46,358 nt of DNA, from positions 1 through 46,358 of the forward strand of contig NZ_MJEI01000066.1 in assembly GCF_002095395.1 (NCBI RefSeq), read 5' to 3'. The stretch is from Williamsia sp. 1135 (GTDB taxonomy: Bacteria > Actinomycetota > Actinomycetes > Mycobacteriales > Mycobacteriaceae). Both the position numbers and the translations under genes were made by a program. The notes under the pieces were generated by a model. That model did no database searches. It saw nothing but the letters and a program-made list of their open reading frames with translations, and was not told the DNA's origin. Numbering within the stretch: position 1 is the first letter of the stretch; every line of letters begins with the position of its first letter. Of this stretch, positions 41,879 to 46,358 are shown in pieces.

Positions 41879-42691
41879 ATGCTGCTCGCCCTGGACGTCG
41901 GCAACACCAACATCCACCTCGGTGTGTACGCCGGGCAGGGTGACCATGCCCGGCTCGTCCGGGATTGGCGCATGCGCACCGAACCCCGGATGACCGCCGA
42001 CGAACTGGCGTTGAACCTGCGCGGTCTGCTCGGCTCCGACATCGATCAGGTGACGGCGGTGGTCGGTCTCTCGACGGTGCCGTCGCTCCTTCGGGAGATG
42101 CGCGTGATGGTGGGCAAGTATTTCGGCGCCGGACCCCACGTCCTGCTCGAACCCGGTGTGCGAACCGGTGTTCCGCTATTGGTGGACAACCCCAAAGAGG
42201 TGGGTACCGACCGGGTGGCGAATGCACTGGCCGCCTACACCGCCTACCAGCGCGGCTGCATCGTGGTCGACTTCGGCACCACGACCCTGGTCGACGTGGT
42301 CTCGGCCAAAGGGGAGTTTCTGGGCGGCGCGATCGCGCCCGGTATCGACCTCGCGGTGGAGGCCCTGGCCGCTCGCACCGTCACGCTGCGCACGGTCGAA
42401 CTGCTGCCCCCGCGCAGCGTGGTCGGCAAGAACACCGTCGAAGCCCTGCAATCGGGCATCTTGTACGGATTCGCGGGCCAGGTCGACGGCCTGGTGTCGA
42501 GAGTGCGACGCGAGGTGCCCGGATTCGACGGAGATGCCATCGCGGTGATCGCGACCGGTTACCTGGCGCCGCTTGTCTTCGACGAATGCGTGACGCTGCA
42601 GCACCACGAGCCGACCCTGACTCTCGACGGTCTGCGGCTGGTCTACGAGCGGCAGCGGGACGCCCGCACGCGATCGCGTCCGCAGATCTGA
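41879..42691 (+). CDS. coaX: Type III pantothenate kinase CoaX
   Basis: 270-residue kinase giving 4'-phosphopantothenate, the first step of CoA synthesis. LLALDVGNTNIHLGVY (phosphate 1), NPKEVGTDRVANALAAY, VVDFGTTTLVDVVSA (phosphate 2) and the GGAIAPGIDLAVEALAARTVTL block define the type III family. It belongs to the panC-panD-coaX operon. Its end is followed by a 150-nt gap holding a Cys-containing leader ORF. Confidence 0.95.
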   Translation: MLLALDVGNTNIHLGVYAGQGDHARLVRDWRMRTEPRMTADELALNLRGLLGSDIDQVTAVVGLSTVPSLLREMRVMVGKYFGAGPHVLLEPGVRTGVPLLVDNPKEVGTDRVANALAAYTAYQRGCIVVDFGTTTLVDVVSAKGEFLGGAIAPGIDLAVEALAARTVTLRTVELLPPRSVVGKNTVEALQSGILYGFAGQVDGLVSRVRREVPGFDGDAIAVIATGYLAPLVFDECVTLQHHEPTLTLDGLRLVYERQRDARTRSRPQI

Positions 42692-42737
42692 TCGGGTCTG
42701 GTGTGGCCGGGCCGGATATGGCACAATCTGCAGCGTG

Positions 42738-42773
42738 ATGAACCGGAGCTGTCAGGAGTGTTGTCGGGGCTGA
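42738..42773 (+). CDS. Cysteine-containing leader peptide (MNRSCQECCRG)
   Basis: An 11-codon ORF with three cysteines (C5, C8, C9) lies 71 nt upstream of the rhodanese-like gene. A -10-like cacaat at 42722-42727 puts the transcript start at about 42735, so the ORF would be leaderless or begin as GTG-ATG. Leaderless short ORFs rich in Cys codons act as cysteine-responsive attenuators of sulfur operons in mycobacteria (established knowledge). Here it could sense cysteinyl-tRNA supply and control the downstream gene. It is not proven to be translated. Confidence 0.55.
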   Translation: MNRSCQECCRG

Positions 42774-42802
42774 ATGCCTCTCGATGACCCCTGTGCCCGA
42801 TC

Positions 42803-42823
42803 TCGGCGGCTGATGTCCGCCGA
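42803..42823 (+). promoter_or_regulatory. Hairpin between leader ORF and rhodanese-like gene
   Basis: tcggcgg and ccgccga form a perfect 7-bp stem with a 7-nt loop, 29 nt after the leader stop and about 21 nt before the next ATG. It could be part of an attenuator, but no T-run follows and no alternative pairing was established. Confidence 0.4.
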
Positions 42824-42844
42824 TCACATCTGAAAGTTCTTCCG

Positions 42845-43312
42845 ATGTCAGTGCTCACCGCACCCCTGTCAGACGTCCACACCAGCAACGACGTGAAGAT
42901 TCGCCCCGGCGAACCGATGACCGCGCGCGCCTGCGCTCCGTTGTCCATCTCGGCTGATCAATACGGTCCAGCCCTGCATAGTGGTGCCACGGCGGTTGAC
43001 ATCCGTAGCCAGTCCGATCGGGACCGCGACGGAATTCTGTTGGGAGCCTTGGCGATTCCGGCCGATGACATTCTCGCGCGGCTCGTGCCCGGCACCGCGG
43101 TGTCGCTGGCGGGCGCAGAGTTCGGCCGGCGCTGGGTGCTGGTCGGCCGGGATGGTCACGACGCCGAGATGCTGACGTGGCGGCTGCAGGCGCTCGGTGT
43201 GACCGGCGCGCGCTTCGTCGCAGGCGGTCAACAGATGTTGTCGCGCTCGTCCGGCCGTGGACCGCTCGGCGCACACACCGCCCGCGATCTGGAGACCTAC
43301 GCCGCGCACTGA
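42845..43312 (+). CDS. Rhodanese-like domain protein lacking the active-site cysteine
   Basis: 155-residue protein. [35 protein letters not shown] and [22 protein letters not shown] follow the rhodanese fold (VDVRS...GHIPGA...L...GG). At the catalytic loop the sequence is [13 protein letters not shown], with Gly where Cys is required, so transferase activity is not expected. The only Cys is near the N-terminus (ARACAPL). The N-terminal 25 residues are atypical, and an in-frame ATG at 42917 could be the true start. The gene occupies the place of the short Rv3599c of M. tuberculosis, between coaX and lysS. Confidence 0.65.
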
Positions 43313-43370
43313 TCGAGCGGATCTGCGCCTCCGGCGGCGTTATGAATTCGGCAGTGTTCTGCGCGGCCGA

Positions 43371-43376
43371 TAGGGT
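43371..43376 (+). promoter_or_regulatory. Possible -10 element for leaderless lysS
   Basis: tagggt lies 8 nt before GTG 43384, the distance expected for a transcript starting at the GTG. No Shine-Dalgarno sequence precedes it. Confidence 0.4.
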
Positions 43377-43383
43377 CGCCTGT

Positions 43384-44934
43384 GTGAATGAAGTCCGTGG
43401 CCGAGGCCGAAATACCCCAGATGTCGACACCACTCCCGAATCAGAGGGCGCTGATCAGACCCCGGAACAGCTCCGGATCCGCCGCGCGAAGCGGGAGAAG
43501 ATCCTCACCGAGGGCGGCGAGGCGTATCCGGTATCGGTGCCGCGAACACATTCACTTGCCGAGGTCCGCGCGAAATATCCCGACCTCGAGGTCGACACCC
43601 AGACCGGCGACATCGTCGGGGTCGCCGGGCGCGTCATCTTCGTCCGCAACACCGGCAAGCTCTGTTTCGCCACCCTGCAGGAAGGTGACGGCACCCAACT
43701 GCAGGCGATGATCAGTCTGGGCGGAGTCGGAGAAGAGGCACTCGCCTCGTGGAAGGCCGACGTCGATCTCGGCGATTTCGTTTTCGTCCACGGTGAGGTC
43801 ATCAGCTCACGGCGCGGCGAGCTCAGTGTGCTCGCCGACACCTGGCAGATGGCGTCCAAGTCGTTGCGGCCACTTCCGGTGGCGCACAAGGACATGAGCG
43901 AAGAGGCGCGGGTCCGGCAGCGGTACCTCGACCTGATCATCCGGCCGCAGGCGCGGGAAACCGCCCGAATCAGGGTCGCGGTGATGCGAGAGCTGCGCGC
44001 CGCACTGGAACGACGCGGTTTCCTCGAGATCGAGACGCCGATGCTCCAGACCCTGCACGGCGGAGCGGCGGCGCGACCGTTCGTCACCCACTCGAACGCC
44101 TTCGACATCGACCTCTACCTGCGCATTGCGCCGGAACTCTTCCTGAAGCGGGCCGTGGTCGGCGGAATCGAGCGCGTGTTCGAGATCAACCGCAACTTCC
44201 GCAACGAGGGCGCCGACTCGACGCATTCTCCGGAATTCGCAATGCTCGAGACCTATCAGGCCTATGGCACATACGACGATTCTGCGCGGATGACGCGGGA
44301 GGTCATCCAGGAGGTCGCGATGGGTGCCCTCGGCACGCTGACCCCGGAGATGGCCGACGGGACCACGTACGACCTCAGCGGTGAATGGCGGTCGGTGGAG
44401 ATGTATCCGTCGTTGTCGCAGGCCATCGACGAGGAGATCACCCCGCAGACGTCCGTGGAGCGCCTGCTCGAGATCAGTGCCCGAGTGGGCTTGGAGATTC
44501 CCCCGAACAAGGGATACGGGCACGGCAAGCTGGTCGAAGAGCTGTGGGAGCACACGGTGGGCGACGAGTTGTCGGGGCCGGTGTTCGTGCGAGACTTCCC
44601 GATCGAGACCTCCCCGCTGGTGCGCGAGCACCGCACCATCGAAGGTGTGACCGAGAAGTGGGATCTCTATATGCGGGGTTTCGAATTGGCAACCGGATAT
44701 TCAGAATTGATCGACCCGGTCATTCAACGCGAGCGGTTCGTCGATCAGGCCCGTCTTGCGCGTGCCGGCGATGACGAGGCAATGGTGCTCGATGAGGACT
44801 TTCTTGCCGCCATGGAGCAAGGCATGCCGCCGACCACCGGCACGGGAATGGGCATTGATCGACTACTGATGGCGCTTACCGGACTCGGCATTCGGGAAAC
44901 GATCCTCTTTCCACTTGTGAAGCCGCAGCAATGA
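43384..44934 (+). CDS. lysS: Lysyl-tRNA synthetase, class II
   Basis: 516-residue enzyme charging tRNA-Lys. It has an N-terminal OB-fold anticodon-binding domain ([20 protein letters not shown], about 75-95). The class II motifs are [10 protein letters not shown] (1), [22 protein letters not shown] (2) and [15 protein letters not shown] (3). [15 protein letters not shown] is also family-typical. GTG 43384 is chosen since it follows a -10 element; ATG 43342 is an in-frame alternative. In mycobacteria lsr2 follows. Here an IS701-type element begins five bases past the stop. Confidence 0.95.
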
Positions 44935-44939
44935 CCTAA

Positions 44940-44958
44940 TACTACAGCCGTAGATAGG
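44940..44958 (+). repeat. IS701-type left terminal inverted repeat
   Basis: tactacagccgtagatagg is the exact reverse complement of 46340-46358. Beyond base 19 the ends diverge. Confidence 0.93.
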
Positions 44959-44960
44959 GT

Positions 44961-46307
44961 TCATTGTTGTTGTGACCTGCGTTGATAGTGGTGTTGTCGG
45001 GCTCGGTATTGGTGTTTTCGTCGCCAGAGTGACCAGCGGAGGGGGTCAGCGATGGCATGCAGTGGTGTGAGGACGAGGATCGTGAAGAGTTTGCGGAACT
45101 CGTTGACCGACAACCGGATCAGTCCAGGTTCTGAGGGTTGGGCCAGGCGTTCAGTGGCGGTATGCACGGCCAGGAAGGCGTGCGCAGCCATGACCAAGGT
45201 AATCCAGCGGTGCCAGGACGTCCACGTCCGCACTTGATGCTGATCCAGACCGGTCAGGCCTTTGCCGCTCTGGAACGATTCCTCGACCGTCCACCGCCGC
45301 CCGGCGACTCGGACGTACTGGTTCAGCGGCACCGGTGCCGGGCTGTAGCAGCGATAGAAGGCGAGCTCGCCGGAGCTATCGTTGCGCCGCACCAACACGT
45401 GACAGAGGCCAACATCGGGACGCTCGGTGGTCGCGATCAAGGCCCAGGAGTACCAGCGGTGTCCTTTGCTACCGGCGCCGGCAGACATCTTGTGCCAGGA
45501 CCGCGGCGGTAGATTCTCAGCAAGGGCATCGACCCGGATCTTCCCGGCGGCTGTGGGGACCTGCCGATTGCATCCGACGGCCAGGACGTAGCCGATCTGT
45601 CTGTTGTGCAACGCTTTTCGTAGGTTCGGGTCTGCGCCGTACACTTCATCGCCAGCGACCCACGAGGCCGGAACGTCGGCGTCGAGGGCCGCCTCGACCA
45701 GCGTGGTTGCCAGGGCTGGTTTGGTAGCGAACTCGACCGTGTCAGGGACCCCGGCCTTGGTCCTTCGCTGCGGGTCGGTGGCCCAGGTGTGCTGCGGCAG
45801 GTACAGCGCTCGGTCGATCAGGGTGTGTCCGCGAGCGGCGGCGTAGGTCAGGTAGACCGCGACCTGACAGTTCTCCGTGCGTCCGGCGGTTCCGGTGTAC
45901 TGGCGTTGTACCCCAACGGTGTTGGTGCCCTTCTTCAAGTCGCCGGTCTCATCAACGACAAGCACCGCATCAGGGTCGGCCAGGTGGTCGATGACATAGC
46001 TGCGAACGTCATCGCGGACCAGATCAGCGTCCCATTTAGCGCGGGACAGCAAGTGCTGCAGTCGGTCAGGGGTGCCATGGCCCGATAGTTCGGCGATAGT
46101 CCAGCAGTTCTTGGAACCTATATCGGCCAGCAAACCCAGCACCAGCGCACCGGCGTTGCGTCGTGCTTCGACCCGCGCGAACCGCGACGAGAACGACTCC
46201 AACAACCCATCCAGGCCCGCATGCCACCGCTCATGGTCTACCCTCAGTGCTGCGGTTGCCGCAGCTGATCTGGATGTCTTCACAAACTCGAGATCATGCC
46301 GCGGCAA
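44961..46307 (-). CDS. IS701-family transposase
   Basis: 448-residue DDE transposase. The three acidic residues are apparent in AVLVVDETGDLKKG, WVAGDEVYGADPNLRKAL and GRRWTVEESFQSGKGLTGLD (the YREK-like region). The N-terminal block FSSRFARVEARRNAGALVLGL and ELSGHGTPDRLQHLL are typical of IS701 transposases. The ATG at 46307 leaves a short leader of 33 nt inside the right inverted repeat side. The gene is intact, so the element is potentially active. Confidence 0.93.
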   Translation of the reverse strand: MPRHDLEFVKTSRSAAATAALRVDHERWHAGLDGLLESFSSRFARVEARRNAGALVLGLLADIGSKNCWTIAELSGHGTPDRLQHLLSRAKWDADLVRDDVRSYVIDHLADPDAVLVVDETGDLKKGTNTVGVQRQYTGTAGRTENCQVAVYLTYAAARGHTLIDRALYLPQHTWATDPQRRTKAGVPDTVEFATKPALATTLVEAALDADVPASWVAGDEVYGADPNLRKALHNRQIGYVLAVGCNRQVPTAAGKIRVDALAENLPPRSWHKMSAGAGSKGHRWYSWALIATTERPDVGLCHVLVRRNDSSGELAFYRCYSPAPVPLNQYVRVAGRRWTVEESFQSGKGLTGLDQHQVRTWTSWHRWITLVMAAHAFLAVHTATERLAQPSEPGLIRLSVNEFRKLFTILVLTPLHAIADPLRWSLWRRKHQYRARQHHYQRRSQQQ

Positions 46308-46339
46308 CCGCGCCTACCAGCGCAAACACGCCGAAACTA

Positions 46340-46358
46340 CCTATCTACGGCTGTAGTA
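46340..46358 (-). repeat. IS701-type right terminal inverted repeat
   Basis: This 19-bp repeat ends exactly at the last base of the window, so no flanking chromosome is seen on this side. Confidence 0.93.

Follow-up and report, generated by a model that had tools for sequence, protein, structure and literature searches.

What is a short reading frame with three cysteine codons doing between coaX and lysS of Williamsia sp. 1135, directly in front of a rhodanese-like gene that has lost its catalytic cysteine? In this study we analysed the 46,358 nucleotides that carry this locus (hereafter the window), and our answer, which we hold at a probability of roughly 0.7, is that the frame belongs to a leader-peptide attenuator that senses cysteine and has a promoter of its own. 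The element and its neighbours lie on the forward strand. Downstream of coaX (type III pantothenate kinase, 41879..42691, outside the element) a -10-like CACAAT (42722..42727) stands 7 nt before a GTG, and the transcript is predicted to start at 42735. The original prediction had named an 11-residue peptide, MNRSCQECCRG, and its ATG frame with three Cys codons is present at 42738-42773 (ATG AAC CGG AGC TGT CAG GAG TGT TGT CGG GGC TGA). However, direct reading of the sequence places an in-frame GTG (42735-42737) immediately 5' of this ATG. It has the better leaderless spacing from CACAAT, and nearly all rows for Gordonia in our leader table carry a GTG start. Because the GTG is in frame upstream of the ATG, the leaderless product probably has 12 residues, VMNRSCQECCRG, encoded by a GTG-ATG... 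frame at 42735..42773 (ECC core at 42756-42764, stop codon TGA at 42771-42773).

A hairpin had also been proposed after the frame. Folding does predict one, but it overlaps the end of the frame: at 42753..42793 the Gln-Glu-Cys-Cys-Arg-Gly codons pair with the sequence behind the stop codon (inner stem 42760-42788), and among 52 related leaders of other genera 95.9% of the cells in the equivalent inner helix are paired. The first 66 nt of the transcript fold at -25.8 kcal/mol, a stability reached by 0 of 200 shuffles (z -2.73); over 42735-42875 the folding is mildly unusual only (z -1.78, 11/200 shuffles). The spacer of about 70 nt between leader stop and downstream gene is structured. Its second predicted hairpin, UCGGCGG...CCGCCGA (42803..42823, from the minimum free energy fold, with variation in the nine Williamsia leaders judged by eye), lies upstream of a weak SD sequence. 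Then follow, at 42823..42836, AUCAC (42823-42827), which is the complement of the transcript 5' end GUGAU, and the weak SD GAAAG itself (42832-42836). The rhodanese-like gene occupies 42845..43312 (155 aa, with Gly101 at the position of the catalytic Cys) and is followed by lysS (43384..44934, likewise outside the element), which has a leaderless promoter of its own, TAGGGT (43371-43376)-N7-GTG. The remainder of the window, 44940-46358, is an insertion sequence with a DDE transposase on the minus strand (44961-46307, PF13546) and perfect 19-nt inverted ends; it begins 5 nt past the stop codon of lysS, and its other end coincides with that of the contig. A generic sigma-70 scan, which does not model leaderless actinobacterial promoters, returned no promoter. 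Intrinsic terminators (hairpin plus T run) numbered 0 in 42600-43450. At curated score Rfam gave none in 42600-43500, the sole match being sR23 at 14.4 bits against a cut-off of 45, and six leader peptides compared with NCBIfam had no match there.

Is the frame more than a chance opening? In all nine Williamsia genomes it is present, and pairwise identity falls off to both sides of it: 0.99 for the stretch from ECC to the stop codon, 0.91 for the preceding codons, 0.90 for the 3' hairpin arm and 0.87 for the -10 element and spacer, while the outer flanks reach 58-72% (coaX, the intergenic part upstream and the later portions of spacer and gene lie at 0.67-0.72, the gene start at 0.58). Cys codons and reading frame are thus kept where the flanks drift, and the refuting check named with the original prediction, that related genomes would not conserve the Cys codons, turned out in favour of the prediction. 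Among 50 named rhodanese-like loci found by protein similarity (mostly Williamsia and Gordonia, and overlapping largely with the genomes used in our other counts), 49 have a leaderless Cys-Cys frame within 320 nt upstream. The same search gave 0/50 on the reverse strand, 0/49 at 360-700 nt upstream and 0/50 at 480-820 nt downstream. The fiftieth locus, from Jongsikchunia, reads VSKSCQVCR instead of Cys-Cys. The original prediction of a Cys-containing leaderless frame before the rhodanese-like gene therefore holds well beyond this one strain, and we have good confidence that the frame in the window is real and conserved far beyond chance, as judged from these alignments.

The core extends through the family. 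Of 301 family genomes, 187 contain the pattern GARTGYTGYCNNGGNTRA; the reversed control pattern gave 21 matches (counted by eye). The exact core was found in 0 of 106 genomes outside the family, and its four matches among 121 genomes all fell within it. We collected 147 motif sites: 135 stand before a CDO or rhodanese gene in identified genomes, 10 have neither gene and were taken as chance, 1 duplicates the window and 1 lies outside the family. In 131 of the 135 leaders a leaderless start, in the form of a NANNNT box followed after 6-8 nt by a start codon, lies in frame upstream of ECC, the 5' end in each case being a predicted one; the two remaining frames gave 0 and 6 such starts. Where the core is missing, different situations were met. 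Genera g8 (MLRCCC) and g20 (...ACCPQNC..) have leaderless frames at the same place that are unrelated in sequence and still Cys-rich, so that the peptide varies around Cys codons that are retained. In genus g4 the gene is present and the leader absent (7/7 loci), and no such leader follows coaX in the 16 of 16 g29 genomes read; we take g29 to be probably Mycobacterium. A record titled Kitasatospora arboriphila (L299) carries a Williamsia-type locus, its strain label being probably wrong.

Which genes, then, stand behind the leader? By tblastn, the 135 leaders of 21 genera lie directly before either a CDO gene (56 leaders, 11 genera) or a rhodanese-type gene (79). The order coaX-CDO-rhodanese was seen in all 18 CDO loci read, from 11 genera outside Williamsia and Gordonia, with lysS next in the 11 loci where the stretch extended far enough. 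Genera g20 and g24 share this order and have Cys-rich leaders of other sequence. At the coaX-lysS locus of Williamsia and Gordonia there is no CDO, and the rhodanese-like gene comes directly after the leader. In the 50 named loci tblastn placed coaX within 1.5 kb upstream in 28 and lysS downstream in 44; in the 22 loci without coaX in that distance, leader and gene are still together. Judged from gene order, the coaX-lysS neighbourhood of the leader is old and real. Outside the family, 9 CDO loci were scanned and gave one clear leader, the leaderless frame VFWVSRRGHLFDECCR before the CDO gene of L149 (G304, a genome of the same taxonomic order), and one doubtful Cys-rich frame (L148).

It had been suggested that this position links cysteine supply to the expression of the CoA and tRNA-charging genes. 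We rejected leader control of coaX or lysS, despite the preserved neighbourhood, on the separate start signals at both sides. A conserved -10 that belongs to the leader lies downstream of coaX, and in 9/9 Williamsia genomes lysS is preceded by the leaderless promoter TAGGGT-N7-GTG (43371-43386 in the window), so that such control is not supported. Transcripts from the leader may nevertheless read through into lysS.

As to the enzymes, a CDO-rhodanese pair does exist in Williamsia, relocated elsewhere in the genome (C80 at about 41060, L153, on the reverse strand in the genome of the window). A Williamsia copy of the CDO matches PF05995 with E 5.3e-11, and its best solved relatives are named cysteine dioxygenases. 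The enzyme class is thus assigned by family match, and a cysteine-degrading role is presumed. A sulfur-metabolism gene would be expected downstream of a leader attenuator, and the Williamsia copies match PF05995 and PF00581; the window protein is rhodanese-like only. The latter aligns over the rhodanese domain and to Cys-bearing paralogs, and it differs from PF00581 proteins in its score of 14.4 bits, below the family cut-off of 22.2, and in the replaced catalytic Cys, so that neither mark of a catalytic rhodanese, active-site Cys or family score, is found in it. Its closest named relative is a Williamsia record with 93% identity. The loss of the cysteine, which the original prediction had read correctly from one gene, recurs among its relatives: the catalytic column is non-Cys in all 50 named loci (38 Ser, 10 Gly, 1 Ala, 1 Thr). 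In a set of 90 loci, 16 have a CDO no more than 900 nt upstream, and 13 of these keep the catalytic Cys; of the 74 that have none, 71 have lost it. Since these loci are related, the figures describe an association and not 90 independent events. The remainder of the domain is conserved (DGHDAEWLTWHLQARGV...), which indicates selection for something other than classical catalysis, and we infer a probable non-classical role for the protein.

The relocated operon has a leader too. In front of its CDO lies the leaderless frame VTVRPTPLWNRMCCCC (WNRMCCCC, with four terminal Cys codons), and the other six of the 7 Williamsia genomes read show endings MCCC or MCCR. With a ribosome placed on the first Cys codon, the predicted opening energy of the CDO start dropped from 7.5-12.4 to 5.5-8.6 in the five of seven leaders folded, as calculated without a shuffled control.

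How might such a leader work? In the genomes compared, conservation far above that of the flanks extends to the frame, its leaderless start signal, its Cys codons and its place in front of a CDO or rhodanese-type gene. If transcription starts at the G of GTG, the ribosome would begin on the mRNA 5' end and translate VMNRSCQECCRG from there. Its speed over the Cys codons would report the supply of Cys-tRNA and thereby set the output of the downstream gene. We hold with moderate confidence that the window leader regulates the gene behind it.

A candidate for the RNA part comes from folding the leaders of ten other genera, here called D-type (g6, g10, g15, g19, g21, g22, g23, g25 and g26 with CDO, and g27 with rhodanese only; 73 leaders). 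A long hairpin is predicted in which CCAGGAG, just before the Cys-Cys codons, pairs with CUCCUGG at the SD, GCAUGAGC-like leader codons nearer the 5' end pair with the start-codon region, and GUCGAGGC pairs with GCCUCGAC around the stop codon. In the 52 of 135 leaders with a short spacer, helices P1 and P2 had 90.7% of cells paired, versus 40-55% when the partner was slid. Two-sided covariation in the D-type alignment was small, amounting to 4 cells in 1 of 16 pairs, and further types of pair did not exceed shuffles. Over 134 leaders the complementarity of the SD region was 6.66 of 8 pairs against a partner-permuted mean of 6.49, with 0/500 permutations as high, relatedness being uncorrected. 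In the 40 of 73 D-type leaders sampled, the downstream start was modelled to need 7.67 kcal/mol less for opening when a ribosome stalls at the first Cys of ECC (shuffled 1.33, s.d. 2.03), and with the ribosome at the stop codon the energy was 3.47 above the stall (shuffled 0.89). A ribosome held at the Cys codons would keep the SD and start helices open, so that cysteine shortage would switch the gene on. The modelled stalling result is the behaviour expected of an attenuator of this kind.

At first sight, starvation-induced control of a cysteine dioxygenase is metabolically odd. Might the logic be inverted, with the gene responding to plentiful cysteine, run-through keeping the start open and a stall closing it or triggering Rho or mRNA decay? 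Such logic would fit an enzyme that degrades cysteine, and CDO, whose Williamsia copy matches its family model, is the first gene behind 56 of the 135 leaders. Moreover, stalling reduced the unpaired probability of the SD from 0.27 to 0.18 over 134 leaders, a result that counts against the main reading. The opening energy, calculated with shuffled controls, points the opposite way, and we set the SD measure aside as the main one because a weak local SD hairpin dominates it in the structures inspected. As far as the published accounts accessible to us go, Cys leaders are attenuators of cysteine biosynthetic genes, which also argues against inversion, and we regard it as unlikely. A broader reading leaves room for both: a family-wide cysteine-sensing leader would control the CDO-rhodanese operon, either with inverted logic or with CDO as a scavenger that frees sulfur from another thiol in cysteine shortage, and in Williamsia and Gordonia the leader would have been kept after CDO left and would now drive a repurposed rhodanese-like protein without catalytic Cys. 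We put this forward tentatively, as somewhat short of an even chance.

It might also be asked whether the element works as RNA structure only, the reading frame being incidental. Its nucleotides are indeed kept beyond coding need: the Cys pair is encoded by TGT-TGT in 134 of the 135 leaders and by TGT-TGC in one (all selected on the ECC motif), compared with 57 TGC and 48 TGT for Cys codons earlier in the leaders. But the leaderless start and open frame are maintained in a single frame, and leaders of other sequence retain their Cys codons, which makes this explanation quite improbable.

The window leader itself is inferred by descent to do the same job for the rhodanese-like gene, and here folding gave less. 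In Williamsia, Gordonia and three related genera no stalling effect was obtained (no ribosome minus stall -0.35, shuffled 0.49; 40 of 46 leaders). When the initiation region was widened by more bases before the SD, placing the ribosome at the earlier Cys codon led to some opening in Gordonia (14.2 to 10.7) but to almost none in Williamsia (14.4 to 14.0). In 36 of the 46 leaders from the five genera the transcript 5' bases have their complement immediately ahead of the SD (7.4 expected), including 7/9 in Williamsia and 25/27 in Gordonia. In Williamsia the SD helix would have decayed, and candidate contacts are this 5'-end pairing, coupling or Rho-dependent termination; we claim no specific RNA switch for the window leader. 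Has it then become a relic of an ancestor with CDO behind it, no longer regulating? The predicted lack of SD sequestration in Williamsia and Gordonia, the departure of CDO from the locus and the lost catalytic Cys would agree with that. Against it stand the core, which at 99% is the best conserved stretch of the region, and the 22 of 50 named loci in which leader and gene have stayed together without coaX nearby, and we give a relic little credence. That the frame encodes a functional micropeptide, such as a thiol or metal binder, with regulation secondary, is hardly credible: most of the 21 genera do keep the C-terminal ECC[RQ]G almost unchanged (sites selected on ECC), but base pairing also explains this constancy, and unrelated Cys-rich peptides occupy the same place in other genera.

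Attenuators of this kind are known. Cys leader peptides have been predicted before cys operons of Mycobacterium and P. acnes and before cbs of B. longum (Seliverstov et al. 2005, PMC1262725). As that article describes them, they resemble ours in Cys runs near the stop codon and in having no terminator hairpin; they differ in that no conserved hairpins are reported and in their target genes, the words rhodanese and dioxygenase being absent from its main text. The same source describes the LEU element before leuA of Actinobacteria, in which, as in D-type leaders, leader codons pair with the downstream SD in a base stem, whereas Leu codons, a pseudoknot and another gene set it apart; the likeness is one of description, not of sequence. 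Leaderless Cys sORFs, one of them before cysA2, were reported by Shell et al. (2015, PMC4633059), and attenuator function of a polycysteine leaderless sORF in M. smegmatis by Canestrari et al. (2020, Mol Microbiol 114:93), as related in PMC9094748, PMC13236596 and PMC9031893. In these accounts, as here, a leaderless Cys sORF comes first in the transcript, before sulfur genes including cysA2, and ribosome speed at the Cys codons is proposed to set downstream expression. Unlike the mycobacterial sORFs so described, the leaders studied here have another locus and other targets (CDO, and the CDO-linked rhodanese or its Cys-less relative), and an ECC core that in ten genera comes with a predicted helix to the SD. 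In the literature searched, Canestrari et al. (2020) aside, we found no leader described before CDO or in the coaX-lysS interval. The kind of element is therefore known; what appears to be new is its locus, its target and the near-invariant ECC core.

The product of cysA2 is, we assume, a rhodanese. Known Cys leader attenuators serve genes of cysteine supply; here the leader stands before a thiol dioxygenase, in 11 genera, or before rhodanese-type genes. The family thus offers a natural series in which the leader stays and the gene behind it changes. The direction in which the operon responds to cysteine shortage and the real substrate of the dioxygenase become directly testable questions.
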